Assembly: GCA_009838965.1 (NCBI GenBank)
Contig: VXQP01000045.1
Location: forward strand, 1-34,036
DNA length: 34,036 nt
From: Chloroflexota bacterium
Lineage (GTDB): Bacteria; Chloroflexota; Dehalococcoidia; Lucifugimonadales; Australimonadaceae
Reading direction: 5' to 3'
The notes beneath the pieces are model-generated. The model did not search any database. It was not told the DNA's origin and worked only from the letters and a program-made list of their open reading frames with translations. Positions 3,296 to 11,779 of the stretch are shown here, one piece after another. The translations under genes and the position numbers were made by a program. Positions within the stretch are counted from its first letter, which is position 1, and every line of letters starts with the position of its first letter.

Positions 3296-3781
3296 TCAGC
3301 CTCCCAACTCCTGCTCCACGATGTAGCGCAGCACGTCCGACAGCAGGAAGACGACGATCCCGAGGATGACGACCGTGTTGACGTGCCCGAGCGCGGCCGC
3401 GATGGCACGTATGCGCCCCGGTGACGTGGTGACGGCCTCGGCTACACGCCTGCGGCGGCGGATGGCGATGAAGAACATCCAGGCGGAGAGCGCGACCTTG
3501 AGGGCGAGCACGGCGGCGTAGCGCGCGGTGGCGGTCGGTTCCGAGATGCGGGTGAAGAAGAGGACAGCGCCGGTCACCACGAGCGTCCACATCGCGAGCT
3601 TTACGAGCCCGCCGAAGCGCTCGGTCGCGGCGCGTGCGCTGTCGGATGAGAGCGAGCCGCTCGTGACGGCAGGCCTCAGGACCAGCAGGTAGAAGATGCC
3701 GCCTCCCACCCATGCCACGGCGGCGATAGCGTGCGCCCAGCGGGCGGCGAGCAGAGCAGCGTCGGTCATGTCGGGCGGCAT
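3296..3781 (-). CDS. CopD-like four-helix integral membrane protein
   Basis: About 161 residues with four hydrophobic segments: WAHAIAAVAWVGGGIFYLLV near the N-terminus, LAMWTLVVTGAVLFF, a third helix around ALKVALSAWMFFIAI, and VNTVVILGIVVFLLSDVLRYIV at the end. The first helix, with a His and a WVGGG turn, is characteristic of the CopD / copper-resistance D membrane domain family. In that family conserved His residues are thought to handle copper or haem, but many members are uncharacterised. Two starts are possible: ATG at 3781 (MPPDMTDA) or ATG at 3769 (MTDA). Neither has a good ribosome site. The much longer open frame reaching 4357 is rejected because that part is compositionally random and overlaps the divergent selenoprotein gene. 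It converges on tctAB. The specific function is unknown. Confidence 0.7.
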   Translation of the reverse strand: MPPDMTDAALLAARWAHAIAAVAWVGGGIFYLLVLRPAVTSGSLSSDSARAATERFGGLVKLAMWTLVVTGAVLFFTRISEPTATARYAAVLALKVALSAWMFFIAIRRRRRVAEAVTTSPGRIRAIAAALGHVNTVVILGIVVFLLSDVLRYIVEQELGG

Positions 3782-4151
3782 GGTAGGGGAGCGCAGGGCG
3801 TTCGGCAACGCAATGTGACATCCGCCCCTTACGCGCAACCCCACGAGCGGGTACGTTGTCTCCGTCGCGGATGCGGCTGTTCGCTCGCACACCGGGTCCC
3901 GGTCCGGCAGGCAGAAGCGATTCAGAGCGGTTATGGGCGGGTCTTGCGCGGCGATGAGCGGTATTGAGCGGTCTGGATAGCGTGGGCAGAGGGTGAAACC
4001 AGAGGTGGATGTGCACAGGATGAGCGGAGATGAGCGGTTAAGCCTCGTGGCACAGAGATTCGGGGCAAGGCGCAGCAATCGAGGGATGATATCGCTAGCG
4101 CGCATGTGAGGCCGGTGCGTACTATGAGATGACTGAACCGGAGGTGTGTGG
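3782..4151. other. 370-bp intergenic region between divergent genes, with short phased repeats
   Basis: No credible coding sequence was found on either strand. It contains five copies of a decamer close to GATGAGCGGT at 3923, 3953, 3963, 4019 and 4029. Pairs 3953/3963 and 4019/4029 are exactly 10 bp apart, that is, one helical turn. A possible -10 element TACTAT (4120-4125) lies about 27 bp before the plus-strand gene, with no recognisable -35. The region must hold promoters for the CopD-like gene and for the selenoprotein-mutL operon. Confidence 0.6.
4140..4146 (+). promoter_or_regulatory. Shine-Dalgarno site for the ArsC-like selenoprotein
   Basis: GGAGGTG lies five bases before ATG 4152. 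It matters because it fixes the start upstream of the in-frame TGA at 4185-4187, showing that translation begins before that codon. Confidence 0.8.
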
Positions 4152-4502
4152 ATGGCAGGCGTCGCGCTGTACCACTGGGTGGGGTGAGGAACGTGCAAGA
4201 CGGCGAGAGCGGCGCTCTCGCAGGCAGGGGTAGCGTTCGACGAGCGCGACTTCTTCAAGCATCGTCTCTCCCGTGAGGAGATCGAGGCGCTGCTCGACGG
4301 CGAGCCTCCCAGCGCGCTGTTCAACCTGAGGTCCGCGACGTTCCGCAAGAGCGGCATAGACCCGGAGTCGTTGACGGAGGAGCGGATGCTGGATCTGCTC
4401 GTGGAGGAGCCGCGCTACTGGAAACGTCCGGTTGCGGTGGTGGACGGCAAACTGATGGCAGGCGCGAACGCGAAGCAGCTTGGGGCAGCGCTGGGGTTCT
4501 GA
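4152..4502 (+). CDS. ArsC/Spx-family thioredoxin-fold selenoprotein (UxxC), in-frame TGA read as selenocysteine
   Basis: Read straight through the TGA at 4185-4187, the frame gives 116 residues, the normal length of this family. The start MAGVALYHWVG aligns with ArsC ITIYHNPA, and codon 12 (TGA) falls exactly on the catalytic Cys12 of E. coli ArsC, with Cys15 giving a U-G-T-C motif like the CxxC of Spx. Beyond it the family pattern continues: LFNLRSATFRKSG (Arg60, equivalent to ArsC Arg60), then YWKRPVAVVDGKLMAG (the conserved RP before the last strands). A perfect hairpin at 4203-4221 sits where a bacterial SECIS belongs. Family members reduce arsenate with glutathione/glutaredoxin or act as redox regulators (Spx); with UxxC this one may be a general thiol-dependent reductase. 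The stop overlaps the mutL start by one base, so mutL translation probably depends on read-through. Alternatives are a nonsense mutation or an assembly error, both less likely given the exact position. Selenocysteine machinery is not visible in the window. Confidence 0.82.
4203..4221 (+). promoter_or_regulatory. Candidate bacterial SECIS hairpin
   Basis: GCGAGAGC (4203-4210) and GCTCTCGC (4214-4221) form a perfect 8-bp stem around a GGC loop (or 7 bp around CGGCG). The loop begins 23 nt after the TGA at 4185-4187. Known bacterial SECIS elements lie inside the coding sequence just downstream of the UGA, with a small apical loop that begins with G and starts roughly 16-37 nt away. This hairpin meets those criteria; a bulged U on the 5' side is not apparent. 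Confidence 0.65.
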
Positions 4503-6235
4503 TGACGATACGGGTACTGCCTGCGGGAGTTGCGGCGAGGATCGCTGCGGGGGAAGTCATCGAGCGCCCGGCGTCGGTCGTCAAGGAGCTGATCGAGAAC
4601 TCGCTGGATGCGGGAGCGCGCGTCATCGGTGTCGAGATACGGCATGGCGGCCTGGCCTCGATACGAGTGACCGACGACGGCTGTGGCATACCGGCGGACG
4701 AGGTTGCGCTGGCGTTCGAGCGTCACGCAACGAGCAAGCTGGGGTCGGTGGACGACCTCGCCGACATCGGGACGCTCGGGTTCCGGGGTGAGGCGCTGGC
4801 AAGCATCGCGGCAGCCGCAAGCGTGCGCATGACAACGCGCACGTCTGACGCGGGGTCCGCGACGACAGTGGAGATGGAGGGCGGCGCGATCGCGCGGCAG
4901 TCGGAGGCGGGCGCCGGCGTGGGGACGACGATCGAGGTCGAGGCGCTTTTCTCGACGATACCGGCGCGGCTCAAGTTCATCCGCTCTCCGGCCGCGGAGA
5001 CGGCGCGTGTGCGGCAGACGGTGGACCATCTGGCGATGGCGCACCCGCACATCCGGTTCACGCTCAATACAGACGGCAGGTTGCAGCTCTCCACGTCCGG
5101 CAACGGCAACCTGCGCGACGCGGTCGCTGCGGTGCATGGCGCGGGGCTGGCGCAGGCGATGATCGAGGTCGGTTCGTGGACCGGGCCATACCCCGTGTGG
5201 GGCCTCGTGGGTACGCCGGAGCAGAGCCGCGCGAACCGCACCGGCATCAGCCTGTTCGTGAACAGCCGCTGGGTGCAGCACCGCGCAGTGGGCGTCGCCA
5301 TCGAGGAAGCGTACCGGGGCCTGCTGATGGAGGGCCGCTTCCCGATAGCAGTCGTGTTCCTCGATGTGCCGCCGGGCGAGGTGGACGTGAACGTGCACCC
5401 GAACAAGCGCGAAGTGCGGCTGTCGCACGAGGGCGACGCATTCTCGAGTGTGCAGCACGCGGTGCGCGAGGCGCTGCTTGCGGCGTCGCCCATCGCCGAG
5501 GGAGAAGGGCTGCTTTCGCAGGCCGCACCCCCTGCGCCGCCTCCTGTGCCGTCTTTCGAGATGACATTCGCATCCCAGGAGCGTGAGCAGTCGCCTCTGC
5601 CAGAGCCCGCACCTGTCGCAGAGGAAGCGCATGCACCGCTGGTACTTCCTCTCGGAGCGTCGCCGCTGTCGCGCCTGCGGGTGCTGGGGCAGATCGCGAA
5701 CACGTACATCGTGGCCGACGGGCCCGACGGCATGTACCTGATCGACCAGCACGCGGCGCACGAGTCGGTGCTCTACTACCGGCTGCTGCGGCAGTGGGCG
5801 AACAGCGCGCCGGAGGTGCAGCCGATGCTGGAGCCGCTGCCGATGGGCCTGACGCCGCAGCAGATGGACGCGCTGGGCGAGGGACGGGCGGTGCTGGAGG
5901 GGTACGGCCTGCTGGTGGAACCGTTCGGCGACGACACGCTGCTGGTGCGCGCAGTGCCGGTCATGGCGCGCCGCGTGGACGCGGCGAAACTCGTCGCCGA
6001 GACGTTGGACAACTTCGCAACGCGCGCCAATGGGGTGGACACCCACATGGCTGCTGCGGCGTCCATCGCGTGTCACAGCGCGGTGCGGGCAGGGCAGACG
6101 CTCGACCACCAGGAGATGACGGCGCTTGGCGAGGTGCTGGCCTCCGAGATGAACCCGCAGCACTGTCCGCACGGCAGGCCGACGGTGATCCGCGTCTCAA
6201 CGGACGTGCTCGGGAGGCAGTTCGGGAGGCTGTGA
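4502..6235 (+). CDS. mutL: DNA mismatch repair protein MutL
   Basis: Mismatch-repair ATPase that couples MutS recognition to downstream nicking and excision. The N-terminal GHKL ATPase domain is intact: ELIENSLDAGA (the Mg-binding Asn), VTDDGCGIP and GTLGFRGEALASI motifs in residues 30-105. The S5-like domain follows (SLFVNSRWVQHRAV, VDVNVHPNKREVR). After a Pro-rich linker (about 335-385) is the C-terminal dimerisation/endonuclease domain with DQHAAHE starting at Asp415, ACHSAVRAG and CPHGRPTVIR. These match the endonuclease motifs DQHAxxExxxxE, ACR/K and CPHGRP, except that the second Glu is Tyr426. At 577 residues it is of normal length. The start shares a base with the stop of the selenoprotein gene and the stop overlaps the next gene (TGATG at both ends). 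No mutS is in the window. Confidence 0.96.
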   Translation: MTIRVLPAGVAARIAAGEVIERPASVVKELIENSLDAGARVIGVEIRHGGLASIRVTDDGCGIPADEVALAFERHATSKLGSVDDLADIGTLGFRGEALASIAAAASVRMTTRTSDAGSATTVEMEGGAIARQSEAGAGVGTTIEVEALFSTIPARLKFIRSPAAETARVRQTVDHLAMAHPHIRFTLNTDGRLQLSTSGNGNLRDAVAAVHGAGLAQAMIEVGSWTGPYPVWGLVGTPEQSRANRTGISLFVNSRWVQHRAVGVAIEEAYRGLLMEGRFPIAVVFLDVPPGEVDVNVHPNKREVRLSHEGDAFSSVQHAVREALLAASPIAEGEGLLSQAAPPAPPPVPSFEMTFASQEREQSPLPEPAPVAEEAHAPLVLPLGASPLSRLRVLGQIANTYIVADGPDGMYLIDQHAAHESVLYYRLLRQWANSAPEVQPMLEPLPMGLTPQQMDALGEGRAVLEGYGLLVEPFGDDTLLVRAVPVMARRVDAAKLVAETLDNFATRANGVDTHMAAAASIACHSAVRAGQTLDHQEMTALGEVLASEMNPQHCPHGRPTVIRVSTDVLGRQFGRL

Positions 6236-6849
6236 TGGGTGTGGCGCTCGTGCTGGCGACGCGGAACCCTGCGAAGGCGGCCCAGCTGCGCGAACTGCTG
6301 GCAGGGCTCGGCGTGGAACTGTCGGACGGAGCGTCGGTCCTAGATGCGCCGGACGTCGAAGAGGAAGGCGGCTCACACCTCGCGATAGCCATCGGGAAGG
6401 CGGTGGCGTGGTCCAGGTCGCTCGGCGCGCTCGTGGTGGCGTCGGACGGCGGGCTGAGCATCCCTGCGCTCGGCGACGGTTGGTCGAGCCTCATCACGCG
6501 TCGCGGGACGGGCGCGGACGTGTCGGACGAGGAGCGCGCGCGGCGTCTGCTGCGACGTATGCGCGACCTTGAAGGAGAGCATCGCGCGTGCTGGTGGACG
6601 GAGGCAGTATCGGTCGCGCGGTCAGGTGAACTGCTGGGAGCGTGGGAGGCGAACGGGCTGGAAGGCTACATCGCGCACGACTTCGTCCCGCCTTCAGGCG
6701 GCACGAACGGGTTCTGGGTCGGCGGACTGTGGGTGACGCGCGACGGCGTGCGACGCTGGGCGCTGACGGCGGATGACACGGAGCGGCTGGGCGATCCGTG
6801 GATGTCGCTGCGCGAGCCGCTGCGGGGGCTGGTGCGTCGGCTGGGGTAG
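6235..6849 (+). CDS. Divergent RdgB/HAM1-like non-canonical purine NTP pyrophosphatase
   Basis: A 204-residue protein, the size of RdgB/Ham1 enzymes that hydrolyse dITP/XTP to keep damaged purines out of DNA. It starts with ALVLATRNPAKAAQLRELL, matching the family's TGNxxKxxE opening. Then come a DVEEEGGSHLAIAIGKA segment (usual form ETGxTFxENAxxKA) and ALVVASDGGLSIPALGDG (usual ADDSGLxVxALxGxPG). The usual GYDP-containing C-terminal motif is replaced by HDFVPPSGGTNGFW, so catalysis may differ or be lost. The ATG overlaps the mutL stop by one base, arguing for co-translation. The 3' end stops one base from the end of the convergent mutY gene. An ITPase-like role beside mutL and mutY fits nucleotide-pool and DNA repair, but it rests on fold-level resemblance. 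Confidence 0.75.
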   Translation: MGVALVLATRNPAKAAQLRELLAGLGVELSDGASVLDAPDVEEEGGSHLAIAIGKAVAWSRSLGALVVASDGGLSIPALGDGWSSLITRRGTGADVSDEERARRLLRRMRDLEGEHRACWWTEAVSVARSGELLGAWEANGLEGYIAHDFVPPSGGTNGFWVGGLWVTRDGVRRWALTADDTERLGDPWMSLREPLRGLVRRLG

Positions 6850-6850
6850 G

Positions 6851-7771
6851 TTACGGCAACCGTACCCGCCCGTTCTCACGGCGGATGAGCCCGTCGCGTT
6901 CGAGAGCGGCGAGGAGGTCGGAGAGCGAAACGGGGCAGGGCGCGCCGGAGGCAGCTTCGGAGTCGCTGAGGACTGCTTCGAGCGCGGACTCCTCGACTCC
7001 GGCGTCGGACTGCTCGCGCAGGTAGTCGACGATGCGCCCGCGGAAGTAGCGTGCCGAACCCTGGAATCTCGACTGTCGCGGCGCGTAAGGGATCGACGCC
7101 TCGGCAAGCGCGGGGTCGCCGCCGGACTGCAGGTGCGGCGCCGCGGCACAGAGCGCACGGAGCGGACAGAGCATGCAGCGCGGCTGGCGCGCCGTGCAGA
7201 GCGTCGCGCCGATGTCCATCAGCGCCTGGTGCCAGTCGGCAGTAGTGAGGGGGCTGTCCGGCTGTGGCAGCAACTCTTCGGCGAGCGGATGGAGCGTATC
7301 GCGCGCTGGAGCGTCGATGCCGTGGAAGACCCGGCTCAGCACCCGGTAGACGTTCGTGTCGAGCACCGCGACAGGCTCGCCGAACGCAAAAGAGGCGACG
7401 GCTGCGGCGGTGTAAGGGCCGATGCCGGGAAGCTTGCGGAGCTCGGCAGCCGTGCGCGGGAGTTCGCCCCCGTAATGCTCTGCCACCTCCTTCGCGAGCT
7501 TGTGCAGTCGCACGGCACGTCCGTTGTAGCCCATGCCGGCCCAGAGACGGATGACGTCGGCGGGTTGGGCATCGGCGAGTGCACGGATTGTGGGAAAGGC
7601 ATCGAGGAAAGCGCGGTACTTCGGGATGACGCGCTCCACCTGTGTCTGCTGGAGCATGACCTCCGACACGAGGATGGCGTACGGATCATCTACGCCCCGC
7701 CAGGGGAGGACGCGGGCGTTGCGCGCGTACCAGGCGGCAACAGCTTCGTGGAGGGCATGGGCGTCGACCAT
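6851..7771 (-). CDS. mutY: A/G-specific adenine DNA glycosylase MutY
   Basis: Removes adenine mispaired with 8-oxoguanine. With the start at ATG 7771 (MVDAHALHEA), residue numbering coincides with E. coli MutY: catalytic Glu37 in LVSEVMLQQTQ, HhH motif LPGIGPYTAAAV, catalytic Asp138 in VLDTNVYRVLSR, and the 4Fe-4S ligands Cys192, Cys199, Cys202 and Cys208 (C-x6-C-x2-C-x5-C). The protein is 306 residues, shorter than the roughly 350 of classic MutY. The last 75 residues (GSARYFRGRIVDYLRE to LERDGLIRRENGRVRLP) look like a small winged-helix-type domain instead of the NUDIX-like 8-oxoG reader, a layout I recall from actinobacterial homologs. The start follows the tlpA-like stop by 4 bp, with no separate ribosome site, implying coupling. 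The open frame reaching 7900 is an out-of-family N-terminal extension. Confidence 0.94.
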   Translation of the reverse strand: MVDAHALHEAVAAWYARNARVLPWRGVDDPYAILVSEVMLQQTQVERVIPKYRAFLDAFPTIRALADAQPADVIRLWAGMGYNGRAVRLHKLAKEVAEHYGGELPRTAAELRKLPGIGPYTAAAVASFAFGEPVAVLDTNVYRVLSRVFHGIDAPARDTLHPLAEELLPQPDSPLTTADWHQALMDIGATLCTARQPRCMLCPLRALCAAAPHLQSGGDPALAEASIPYAPRQSRFQGSARYFRGRIVDYLREQSDAGVEESALEAVLSDSEAASGAPCPVSLSDLLAALERDGLIRRENGRVRLP

Positions 7772-7775
7772 CGTG

Positions 7776-8399
7776 CTACAGAGCCGTGAGCAGATCGTCG
7801 AGGATACCGCGCAGCTCCTCAGCGGAGACGGGGCCGATGAGCTTGCGGACGATGCGCCCCTCAGCGTCGAGGAAGAACTTCTCGGGGACGCCGCGCACAC
7901 CGTAAGAGACGGCCATCGTGCCGCGCGGATCGAGAATGTTGAGGTAGGTCACGTCGTAGCGCTCGATGTGTTCCTCGGCATCAGCGGGGCGGTCCCAGAC
8001 GGCGATGCCCACGAACTCGACGTCCGCTGAGTCATACTCGCGGTATACCTGTGCGAGGTCGGCGGCCTCGATGCGGCAGGCGACGCACCACGACGACCAG
8101 AAGTCGACCATCACGACGCGCCCGCGCAGATCGTCCAGGTCCACGCGTTCCCTGGAGACGAGGTCGTACCCGCCGAACCAGGGCGCCAGGCGCACGAGGA
8201 CCTGTGACTCGCTCGACTCTTCGTGCACCAGCACGCCGCCGGGGTTATCGTCGGAGCGGAACTGGCCCCAGAAGAGCAGGGCGATGATCGCGAGCACGGG
8301 CGTCATGCTCAGCAGGAAGAAGAGGAGGCGTCTCCTCCCGGAGGCAGGCGCAGCGCTGGAAGATGGGTCGGTCTGGGGCGTTTCGTCGGGGAGTGTCAT
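7776..8399 (-). CDS. Membrane-anchored TlpA/ResA-type thioredoxin
   Basis: Extracytoplasmic thiol-disulfide oxidoreductase of 207 residues. A short cytoplasmic N-terminus (Pro/Ser-rich, then RRR) leads into one membrane helix (LLFFLLSMTPVLAIIALLFW, about 25-44), so the redoxin domain is outside the cytoplasm. The active site is WCVAC (Cys105, Cys108) after VVMVDFWSS. The expected cis-proline region is GVRGVPEKFFLD, close to the common GVxGxPTxFxID. TlpA/ResA proteins reduce cytochrome c maturation partners or other exported thiols; the client here is unknown. It lies between the NHL surface protein gene (32 bp upstream) and mutY (4 bp downstream) on the same strand, so the three may be co-transcribed. 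Confidence 0.88.
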   Translation of the reverse strand: MTLPDETPQTDPSSSAAPASGRRRLLFFLLSMTPVLAIIALLFWGQFRSDDNPGGVLVHEESSESQVLVRLAPWFGGYDLVSRERVDLDDLRGRVVMVDFWSSWCVACRIEAADLAQVYREYDSADVEFVGIAVWDRPADAEEHIERYDVTYLNILDPRGTMAVSYGVRGVPEKFFLDAEGRIVRKLIGPVSAEELRGILDDLLTAL

Positions 8400-8431: not shown

Positions 8432-11400
8432 CTACCGGCGGCGTCTGACGAACAGGCCCGCGACGACCACGAGGGCCACCACACCTGCCGCTAGCACCGC
8501 AATGAGCAGAATGGGAGCAGGGTTGTCCCCGTCTCTCGACTGATCAGGTGGTGAGACGGTGGCAACCGGCTCCGGAGTGGGTGAGGGCAGGGGTGTGGGA
8601 GTCGGCGGGACCGGTGTCGGCGTTGGCGCCGGTGTCTCCGTGGGAGTGGGTGTCAGTGTGGGTGTTGGCGCAGGCATGGGAGTGTCAGCAGGAGTGGGCG
8701 ACGGCGCCGGGGTGGACGTAGCGGTCGGCTCCGGCGTGGGCGTCGGAGTGGGCGGCGCAGGCGTTGGGGTCGGCCTCGGCATCGGAGTTGCGGTAGGCGG
8801 CGGGACCGGAGTGGGTGTGGGCGCGGGCAGGGCGACGCCGCACGCAGCGACGTTCTCGGCCAGTACGAACGCCGGAGACCAGTTGGAGAGCGGCTCACCA
8901 CTGGCGCGCACGACCCTGACGGTCAGCTGCACCCGCTCATCATCGCCCCAGAGCGACTGGCCGAGGCTGCTCATATCGATGGTGAAGCGGTCCCCGGCCA
9001 TGCGGAGCCTGGGGTCGGATAGAGATACCTCGTAGACGTAGGCTGCGGTCAGCTTTCGGAACTCCAGCTGGAGGGTCCCATCGGCTGAAAGCCCCAGGAC
9101 ATGCAGGGACACTCGCCGCTCGTAGGTATTCGATGAACTCCGCACGGCACAGAAGGGCGGTTCTGGGTCGACTGACTGGATAGTCACGGGGTATTCGGGC
9201 AGGGGCGCGGGCTGCGGGGATGTGCTGCCGCCCGGGGGTGTCGGGTTCCCGAACGGGTTGCGATAGACCAGCACCCTCCCGCGGTTGATGTCCGCCATGT
9301 ACAGGTTGTCGTTGTCGTCGAATGTGGCGGAGTACGCCATCGACCAGAGATCGCGGAGATATGCGTCCGGCCGCGTTCCCGGACCAAGCGGGTTTTCGTA
9401 GACGCCTGCAAACCTCCCGCCCCTGTACATGTTGTATCCAACCACCATCCTGTTCGTGCTGTCGAAGGCGGGCTCCCACGTCGACGCCAGAAGAGGCCCC
9501 CACCAACTGTTGTCGATAACCGGGCGGGGTTCGTAATCGCTCACCACCAGATTCTGGCCGCCTCCATGTTCTTCGAACACCTTGGTTGCGCGGACGGCGT
9601 ATAGCGTCGTGGAGTTGTCGAGCGGGAGCCGCTCCGCCGGGAAGACCAGCAGCCGGTGATTGCCATCGAATTCGAGGGCATGGTCGGAGACGTACAGATT
9701 CCCGGACCAGTCGAGCGACAGGGCGCCGGGGAAGCAGAGCATGTCCATGGTGACGTTCTGGAAGACGCTCCGATCGGACGCTTGGTGCGCTCCCAGATCG
9801 GCCCGCCGGTTGCACCGTGTGCCGGTCGCATCGACCTGCCCCAGTATGACGTCGACGACCGGGTCGGACAGGGGGTCGCGTATCCGCAGCACGCGATGGT
9901 TGTCCGTATCGCTGAGCCAGAGGAACCTTCCTCCATCCGACGGGGCCAGGCCGAAGACGCGCCCGCCGGTCTGTACCCGGTTGCTGCTTCCAAGGACGGG
10001 ATAGGATTCGCTGTCAGTCCACAGCGTCGCTATGGGAGCGGAAGACTCATCCAGCGGAAGCTGGTAGACGTCGATGAAATGCCGTCCCTCCCAACTCAAG
10101 CTCCACAGCCGGCCCACGTCGTCGGCCTTGACCCTTCCGCAGCAGTCGGCTCGCGGACGCCACTCCGCGTTGCCGACTGCGCCGTCCGCCTCCTGGCCGT
10201 TGCTGAGTTCGTCCAGGCCGTTCCAGTACAGCAGGCGCTGGAAGTCCGGAACAACCAGTTGGTCCGCATAAACAGCAACGCCTCTCGGAGTACGAAGACC
10301 TTTGAGGCCCTGGCTGTTGTACTCGCCAGGAGGGTAGAACAGGCGTTTGTCCGCTTGGAATGTCCGGGTCCGAAGGTCGCCTTGGCTGCCGATGGGGATG
10401 CGGAGCACGTCCTGGGGGCCTGCTGCCAGGGAGACCAGCATGTTGTCATGGGTGTCGAAGGCGATGCCCGTCGCGTCCCAGATCGAAGGCCATCCCGGCA
10501 CGCTGCCGAAACCGGGCCCGCTGCCTTCCTGCGGCTCGTACGACGGCTTTCCGATGAACGCGAGGAGTTCAGAACCACCCCAGTCCCAAAGCTCGACCAT
10601 GCCGTTGCGCTGGTCGTTGACCCAGAGTCCTCGGTCATGGGGGTCGACCTCGATGGACACAGGGTTGTTCAAGCGCGAACCGATGGTGGCGTCGGCTTCC
10701 ATGCCCGAGGTGAAAGGAGGGTGGAACACGAGCACCCTGTTGTTGTCCGTTTCCACAACATACAGCCGTCCCCGGTTATCGAACCTGAGCGCGGACGGTG
10801 TGTGGAACGAGCGCATCGAAGTTCCGGGGGCAGTACCTCGGAAGTCTTGCTGTCCCAGCACCAGGTCCGCACGCTTTGCGATCTCCCCGGAACCACTGGC
10901 CGGGAACCGCAGCACGCGGTTGTTGCCGCTGTCCGCCACCCACAGGTTGCCGTCGGCGTCCAGTTCCACCCCGGCGCCGTACAGACCATCCACGAACCGG
11001 TTGCTGTCCGCATGGAAGCAGAGCGTTTCGGCGGTTGCAGAGCCGAAATTGCCCCGGTTGCACATCATGCCGGAGAAGTTGCGCTGTCCCCAGACTTCAT
11101 CGGCGCGGGCATCGGACCCGAAAGGGTCGTCGTACCGCAGCACCCGATTGTTGTAGGAGTCCGGTACGTAAAGCGCACCGTCGCCGTCGATCGCCATGGA
11201 GGCCAAAGACTTGTGCTCGGTTGGACTTGCAGACACATCCGGTATGCCGCAGAGCGTGTCGGCGCTGGCCGGGGCCCTGTTCGGGAAGTTCTGCACGCCG
11301 CTGTCCCCGTTGCAGGCGCCATGGTCGGACGCAGCCGGTTGACCAATGACGATGTCAGCACTGCACGGGCTCTCACCTGCGTAGCACTTCGCGAGGTCGA

Positions 11401-11779
11401 TCCCGAGGATGCGGCTGTTGCCTGCGTCCCACACGTATGCGCGTCCCGGGGTAACGGAGCGGTCGATAGCGACGCCGCCGGGGTTGAACGTTTTGTAAGG
11501 CACGATCTCGCCAGGCCCGATCTGCGAGAAATCAGGCTTGCCGAGGATCACGTCCGCCCAGAGGTCACCGGCCTGACCGCGGACCGGTTGTCCCAAAGGA
11601 GCTTCGGTGACCGAGCGGGCGAGGGCAGGGACGTCGTGGACCGTTGTGCCTGTGCTGCGGGCGTGAGCCGGGTCTCGGGGGGATGGATCGATGGGGAGAT
11701 AGAAGGCGGAAACCGCGAACAGGGCTGCTACCGCCAGCGTTGTCAGGAGCACGGACAGCGGCCTGGTGACGCGGTTCAT
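8432..11779 (-). CDS. Large NHL-repeat beta-propeller surface protein with Pro/Thr stalk and C-terminal membrane anchor
   Basis: A 1115-residue exported protein. It has a signal peptide or anchor ([19 protein letters not shown], about 10-28), then about 800 residues with repeated NHL-type blades, recognisable by [56 protein letters not shown] and [14 protein letters not shown]. Between blades a second motif recurs, with GQ near its start and paired cysteines (for example [13 protein letters not shown] then [18 protein letters not shown] then MLCFP), which suggests conserved disulfides. A region near 870-985 with a Cys at each end looks like an Ig-type beta domain. A PTPTP stalk (about 982-1075), one membrane helix ([20 protein letters not shown]) and RRRR finish the chain. 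NHL propellers usually bind ligands or proteins and some are enzymes; no catalytic signature is recognised. No ribosome site precedes the ATG; TAGATT lies 6 bp before it. Confidence 0.88.
8545..8835 (-). repeat. Pro/Thr-rich stalk coding region
   Basis: About 95 codons of alternating PTPTP, PAPTPTP and PEPTATP units between the last folded domain and the C-terminal membrane helix of the NHL protein. The plus-strand shadow reads as Gly/Val repeats (GVGVG) and should not be taken as a gene. The DNA repeat is irregular in period. Confidence 0.85.

Follow-up and report, generated by a model that had tools for sequence, protein, structure and literature searches.

Is the in-frame TGA at positions 4185–4187 of contig VXQP01000045.1 from a Chloroflexota bacterium (assembly GCA_009838965.1) the end of a very short reading frame or a selenocysteine (Sec) codon within a longer gene? 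The contig, whose 34,036 nucleotides (nt) form the window analyzed here, belongs to a 3.01-Mb genome in 106 contigs that is 96.6% complete; the closest assemblies with named records fall in Dehalococcoidia, Chloroflexota and SAR202. On the forward strand, the frame opens with an ATG at 4152, runs through eleven codons to the TGA as codon 12 and continues over 104 sense codons to a TGA stop at 4500–4502, giving 116 residues when the predicted Sec (U12) is counted. A ribosome-binding site (GGAGGT, 4140–4145) is located 6 nt upstream of the ATG, and its calculated duplex with the anti-Shine-Dalgarno sequence reaches -13.3 kcal/mol compared with -5.9 kcal/mol for mutL, the next gene. Both the frame and the strong ribosome site had been proposed in a first reading made from the letters alone (the sequence-only reading) and were confirmed. 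A scan for promoters and terminators returned no sites. Comparative data strongly support the interpretation of 4152–4502 as a selenoprotein gene. It probably encodes an ArsC/Spx-fold protein in which codon 12 is read as Sec by means of a stem-loop, likely a UxxC (U, Sec) thiol-disulfide oxidoreductase directly ahead of mutL.

Codon 12 and the downstream stem-loop in relatives

Of 16 genomes in the same family, 13 contain the gene, each of these matches with exactly one in-frame stop, TGA, and between close relatives third codon positions took most of the substitutions 3′ of the TGA. The open frame is therefore not a product of chance. Matches were obtained in 175 of 250 genomes of the order (E ≤ 0.001), at least ten of the matches listed there being stop-free, in 64 of 393 genomes drawn evenly from the class and in 49 of 400 genomes of the phylum.

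Codon 12 was compared at 102 distinct loci; one locus (L080), in which it could not be aligned, was dropped, and sequences identical over the 120 bases from this codon on were counted once. It was TGA at 89 loci, TGC at nine and TGT at four, the share of these 13 Cys forms being inflated as stop-free loci had been fetched deliberately. The varying residue is therefore Sec or Cys and nothing else. Codon 15 (TGC, 4194–4196), the presumed resolving Cys of the UxxC motif, encoded Cys at all 102 loci, and Sec/Cys12, Cys15, Leu22 and Arg92 were invariant across 76 aligned proteins. These counts bear out the proposal of the sequence-only reading that the TGA occupies the catalytic Cys position and forms UxxC with Cys15. 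Random residues at codon 12, which would have spoken against it, did not occur in the homologs examined, and the recurrence of TGA in many separately assembled genomes speaks against a read error. His8, Arg60 and Arg92 had also been listed as retained. This held for Arg92, which is kept in all 89 TGA forms, but not for His8, present in the window protein and in only 16 of the 89, nor for position 60, which was Arg in 56, Lys in 20 and Asn in 10. A start codon 10–13 codons 5′ of the TGA, with 20 nt upstream of it, was available at 87 of the 89 TGA loci. The best anti-Shine-Dalgarno duplex was -7 kcal/mol or lower at 62 of these 87 compared with 172 of 2040 random positions; as many as four starts per locus were tried and the most favorable kept, which biases this count toward genes.

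One locus (L136, genome G588) carries a second in-frame TGA at codon 9, three codons 5′ of the Sec codon and at a position that is Trp in most relatives; it may represent another recoded position, a mutation or an error. Genome G145 contains two copies of the gene (L030 and G145:C9:3654-3989), 54% and 45% identical to that of the window and with one TGA each.

A predicted bacterial Sec insertion sequence (SECIS), absent from the sequence-only reading, is located at 4203–4221 on the forward strand. It consists of an 8-bp stem (4203–4210/4214–4221) closed by a GGC loop and starts 15 nt 3′ of the TGA, with all eight pairs formed in the window. At the same columns, eight pairs were present in 60 of the 89 TGA forms, seven in 23, six in one, four in four and three in one. 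At least six of the eight pairs were thus found in 84 of 89 TGA forms compared with none of the 13 Cys forms, which ranged from one to five. The first apical loop base was G in 87 of 89 TGA forms. Among their 86 distinct rows, 93.5% of the cells were paired compared with 82.2% after shuffling, and the covariation score was 0.447 compared with 0.248; none of 500 shuffles reached either value. Five of the eight pairs had changed on both sides, a number also reached in 76 of 500 shuffles. When the partners were slid, pairing in TGA forms dropped to 34–63%. In the Cys forms (12 distinct rows), paired cells and covariation remained at shuffle level.

Because the stem lies within coding sequence, the segment was recoded synonymously. 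This yielded a mean of 4.36 pairs (maximum 4.71) compared with the 7.48 observed, which none of 300 runs reached. Leu22 is encoded by CTC or CTT only in all 89 TGA forms. At residue 23, 85 of 89 TGA forms carry Ser or Leu, whereas 11 of 13 Cys forms have Asp, Ala or Val; Gln occupies residue 24 in 78 of the 89 TGA forms. This pattern suggests that an RNA constraint shapes the protein at residues 23–24. Comparison with Rfam gave a single chance match across the stem-loop (E 0.76). A SECIS model (R1), trained with the window sequence included so that its 54.8 bits there are no independent test, was used to search the same genome for further selenoproteins. The next matches scored 24.4, 20.4 and 20.0 bits, and the four examined had no sensible frames and were rejected.

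A tree of 101 proteins, calculated from 116 columns and leaving out the remote L077, needed six changes between Sec and Cys, of which supported branches require three or more; owing to the small number of columns, many forks remain open. Three loci of family f47, which belongs to another order (L127, L128 and L027; 66–68% identity, no mutL nearby), nest among the sequences of the window's family. This placement suggests a likely horizontal transfer of the selenoprotein gene.

Selenocysteine machinery in the genome and the order

The search for selA, selB, selD and tRNA-Sec that the sequence-only reading had suggested recovered all four in the same genome. SelA (432.5 bits), SelB (339 bits) and SelD (386.5 bits) scored above their cut-offs, and a tRNA-Sec with anticodon TCA was called by two programs, one using a tRNA-Sec model and the other being ARAGORN. 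The selD frame itself contains an in-frame TGA (L154, G000:C46:37313-38233), which makes SelD of this genome a likely selenoprotein. SelB would bind the stem-loop at 4203–4221 and bring the Sec-tRNA.

Some SelA match was present in 241 of 250 genomes of the order, about forty of the matches being weaker than 1e-100. Seven genomes of at least 90% completeness had no SelA match better than 1e-100; four of them were without a match to the selenoprotein gene (G009, G086, G087, G134) and two had its Cys form (G150, G245). Within one genus, G243 combines the TGA form with SelA, and G244 (83% complete) the Cys form with no strong SelA match.

Several observations weigh against Sec decoding. In genome G162, at least 90% complete, the TGA form occurs alongside a SelA match at 1.2e-24, and 14 genomes of 55–88% completeness have this form with no strong SelA match (G013, G021, G032, G052, G165, G197, G198, G201, G205, G212, G215, G222, G230, G231); incomplete assemblies probably account for all 15. 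Conversely, SelA is kept in five Cys-form genomes of genus g41 (G067, G069, G071, G072, G073). Four matches to the tRNA-Sec model exceeded the cut-off in the window's genome, of which ARAGORN called only the best a tRNA-Sec and the other three tRNA-Ser. The canonical stem is absent in five of the 89 TGA forms (L117, L125, L140, L143, L144), where other hairpins fold in the same stretch. Folding of the single window sequence gives a slight advantage over shuffled versions (z -1.45), and the evidence for the stem is comparative.

Fold, predicted function and rival explanations

The protein matched the Pfam family ArsC (PF03960) with 45.4 bits at a gathering cut-off of 24, and its fold was predicted with a pLDDT (predicted local distance difference test) of 94.4. 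Structural look-ups returned ArsC, Spx and YffB first, followed by glutaredoxin- and glutathione S-transferase-type folds, with YffB and Spx as fold neighbors. Four distant ArsC/Spx-type matches of 26–30% identity were found in phage records. A Sec-dependent thiol-disulfide oxidoreductase is the most likely function. U12 would attack disulfides or oxidized substrates, Cys15 would resolve the resulting selenenyl-sulfide, and a thioredoxin-like protein would then reduce the enzyme.

A point against a purely enzymatic role is that the closest family profile is that of Spx, which leaves room for a regulatory one. The protein might be a seleno-Spx that binds the alpha subunit of RNA polymerase and uses a U12–Cys15 selenenyl-sulfide as a redox switch of transcription, an option to which we assign a small share of the probability. 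With 56.8 bits, the window protein stays under the TIGR01617 (Spx/MgsR) cut-off of 75.05, as do nine of ten relatives tested; one passes. Moreover, Gly52 of Spx, important for contact with the C-terminal domain of the alpha subunit according to PMC12822559, corresponds to Pro52 in the window protein, and only 10 of 89 TGA forms have Gly there. The protein also differs from Spx (1z3e, 3gfk) and YffB (1rw1) in that Sec replaces the first Cys. In a paper that combines Spx and selenocysteine, Sec appears as a toxic analog.

A Sec form of glutaredoxin-dependent arsenate reductase is very unlikely. The ArsC domain is shared, but the protein scored 32.2 bits at a TIGR00014 cut-off of 106.05, Arg is not constant at position 60, and the residue at position 107 varies. 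Unlike E. coli ArsC (1i9d), the protein has a second redox residue at position 15, the presumed resolving Cys, which does not vary. Inspection by eye showed no ars gene adjoining the locus. Public gene calls, which begin 3′ of the TGA, would fit a locus that encodes no selenoprotein, be it through pseudogene decay, an error in sequencing, translation of TGA as a different residue, or plain termination with downstream restart; this is scarcely credible, the first three having been rejected on the same TGA at 89 distinct loci, an alternative residue that is Cys in 13 of 13 cases and never Trp, a stem-loop that tracks the TGA forms and the complete Sec machinery of the genome, to which the coding constraint 3′ of the TGA and the use of TGA as terminator by the gene and several relatives are added. 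A thiol-disulfide oxidoreductase with Sec at position 12 remains our preferred interpretation.

Gene neighborhood and relation to described selenoproteins

Downstream of the selenoprotein gene, mutL (4502–6235, forward strand; Pfam MutL_C and DNA_mis_repair) begins with an ATG that overlaps the preceding stop by one base. It is followed by a Ham1-like gene (6235–6849, forward; Ham1p_like, 51.7 bits), a MutY-like HhH-GPD DNA glycosylase gene (6851–7900, reverse; HhH-GPD and EndIII_4Fe-2S) and a gene for a thioredoxin-like/AhpC-TSA protein (7776–8399, reverse; Pfam scan of neighbors). The latter three recur in four loci of the same genus with 5-kb flanks. On the other side, a divergent membrane-like open reading frame (ORF; 3296–3782, reverse) had no Pfam match and relatives upstream in 14 loci. 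Farther away, an ORF of 1115 residues (8432–11779, reverse) shows NHL-like repeats by eye, a long Thr-Pro-rich linker and a C-terminal hydrophobic segment.

Counting the best match per locus, 32 of the 102 loci have mutL downstream and 19 have mutS upstream, each on the strand of the selenoprotein gene; 18 loci have both and 33 at least one of the two, and all best matches had this orientation. The sequence-only reading had described the gene as coupled to mutL. This applies to the window's own family (f1; mutL only, 13/13) but not to most other families sampled. Only mutL was also found in f29 (1/1), while mutS and mutL flank the gene in f36 (13/13), f23 (2/2) and f16 (1/1). In f11, mutS is present in 3/3 and mutL in 2/3 loci, the third contig ending first. 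Linkage thus concerns 6 of 39 families; the others had neither gene within the DNA covered, which at some loci was limited to about 1.5 kb on each side or by the end of the contig. The order is mutS, selenoprotein gene, usually a HAD-like ORF, and mutL in four families, and selenoprotein gene followed by mutL in two more. The HAD-like ORF, so assigned by eye and with no Pfam match, has about 145 residues and lies downstream in 18 of 19 mutS-bearing loci (for example L108:4416-4850, reverse). The mutL start overlaps the selenoprotein stop by one base in L023, L025 and L030 as in the window and by four bases in L026; gaps of 9–132 nt separate the two in the remaining f1 loci.

This arrangement invites the idea that the selenoprotein could function within a mismatch-repair operon linked to selenium. 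In loci with an overlapping mutL start and a weak mutL ribosome site, MutL synthesis would depend on Sec decoding at codon 12, so that selenium supply or oxidative state would set repair capacity; alternatively, the protein could guard MutS and MutL against redox damage. We regard either version as improbable.

The gene had been expected to escape standard gene callers. Consistently, the 32 matching clusters of public proteins each cover 81% of the query at most, and all eight sequences inspected lack the region surrounding codon 12, so public gene predictions contain the protein only truncated. The occurrence of ArsC-like selenoproteins in marine metagenomes, to which the sequence-only reading had pointed, agrees with the ocean listings (PMC2398784, PMC1088965). 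A 2008 Global Ocean Sampling (GOS) survey listed a UxxC 'Arsenate reductase 2' (cd03032) comprising 238 Cys homologs and 42 Sec sequences, the latter from 21 samples (PMC2398784), and an ArsC-like entry with UxxC taken from that survey reappears in a 2022 review (PMC9312934). A UxxS form was reported from the Sargasso Sea in 2005 (PMC1088965), and a 2006 survey included ArsC-like selenoproteins from two deltaproteobacterial species among others (PMC1794560). With these ocean and bacterial listings, the kind was already known.

The window protein shares with the GOS entry an ArsC/Spx-type domain, UxxC and the occurrence of Sec and Cys forms, a likeness based on the motif and the Pfam ArsC domain. 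That entry is an ocean metagenome listing with no genomic context in the portion of text consulted, whereas the gene described here is anchored. The named Sec/Cys family NF041106 (ArsC_rel_Se_1, ArsC family (seleno)protein) has the ArsC fold in common, but the window protein is far under its cut-off (19.8 compared with 85 bits), and a scan of the own genome with this model gave no match at E ≤ 0.001. In the open-licence literature searched, we found no description of such a protein from Chloroflexota or of its gene next to mutL or mutS; PMC5029168 contains none of the terms ArsC, arsenate reductase, Chloroflexi and Dehalococc. What appears to be new is a member anchored in genomes and its mutL/mutS context, the UxxC ArsC/Spx-type kind having been listed in 2008.

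A selenoprotein from metagenome lists thereby gains genomes, neighbors, a covarying SECIS and natural Cys-form controls. With its gene inside a mismatch-repair gene cluster in 6 of 39 families, a possible connection of selenium and redox state with the control of mutation becomes directly testable.
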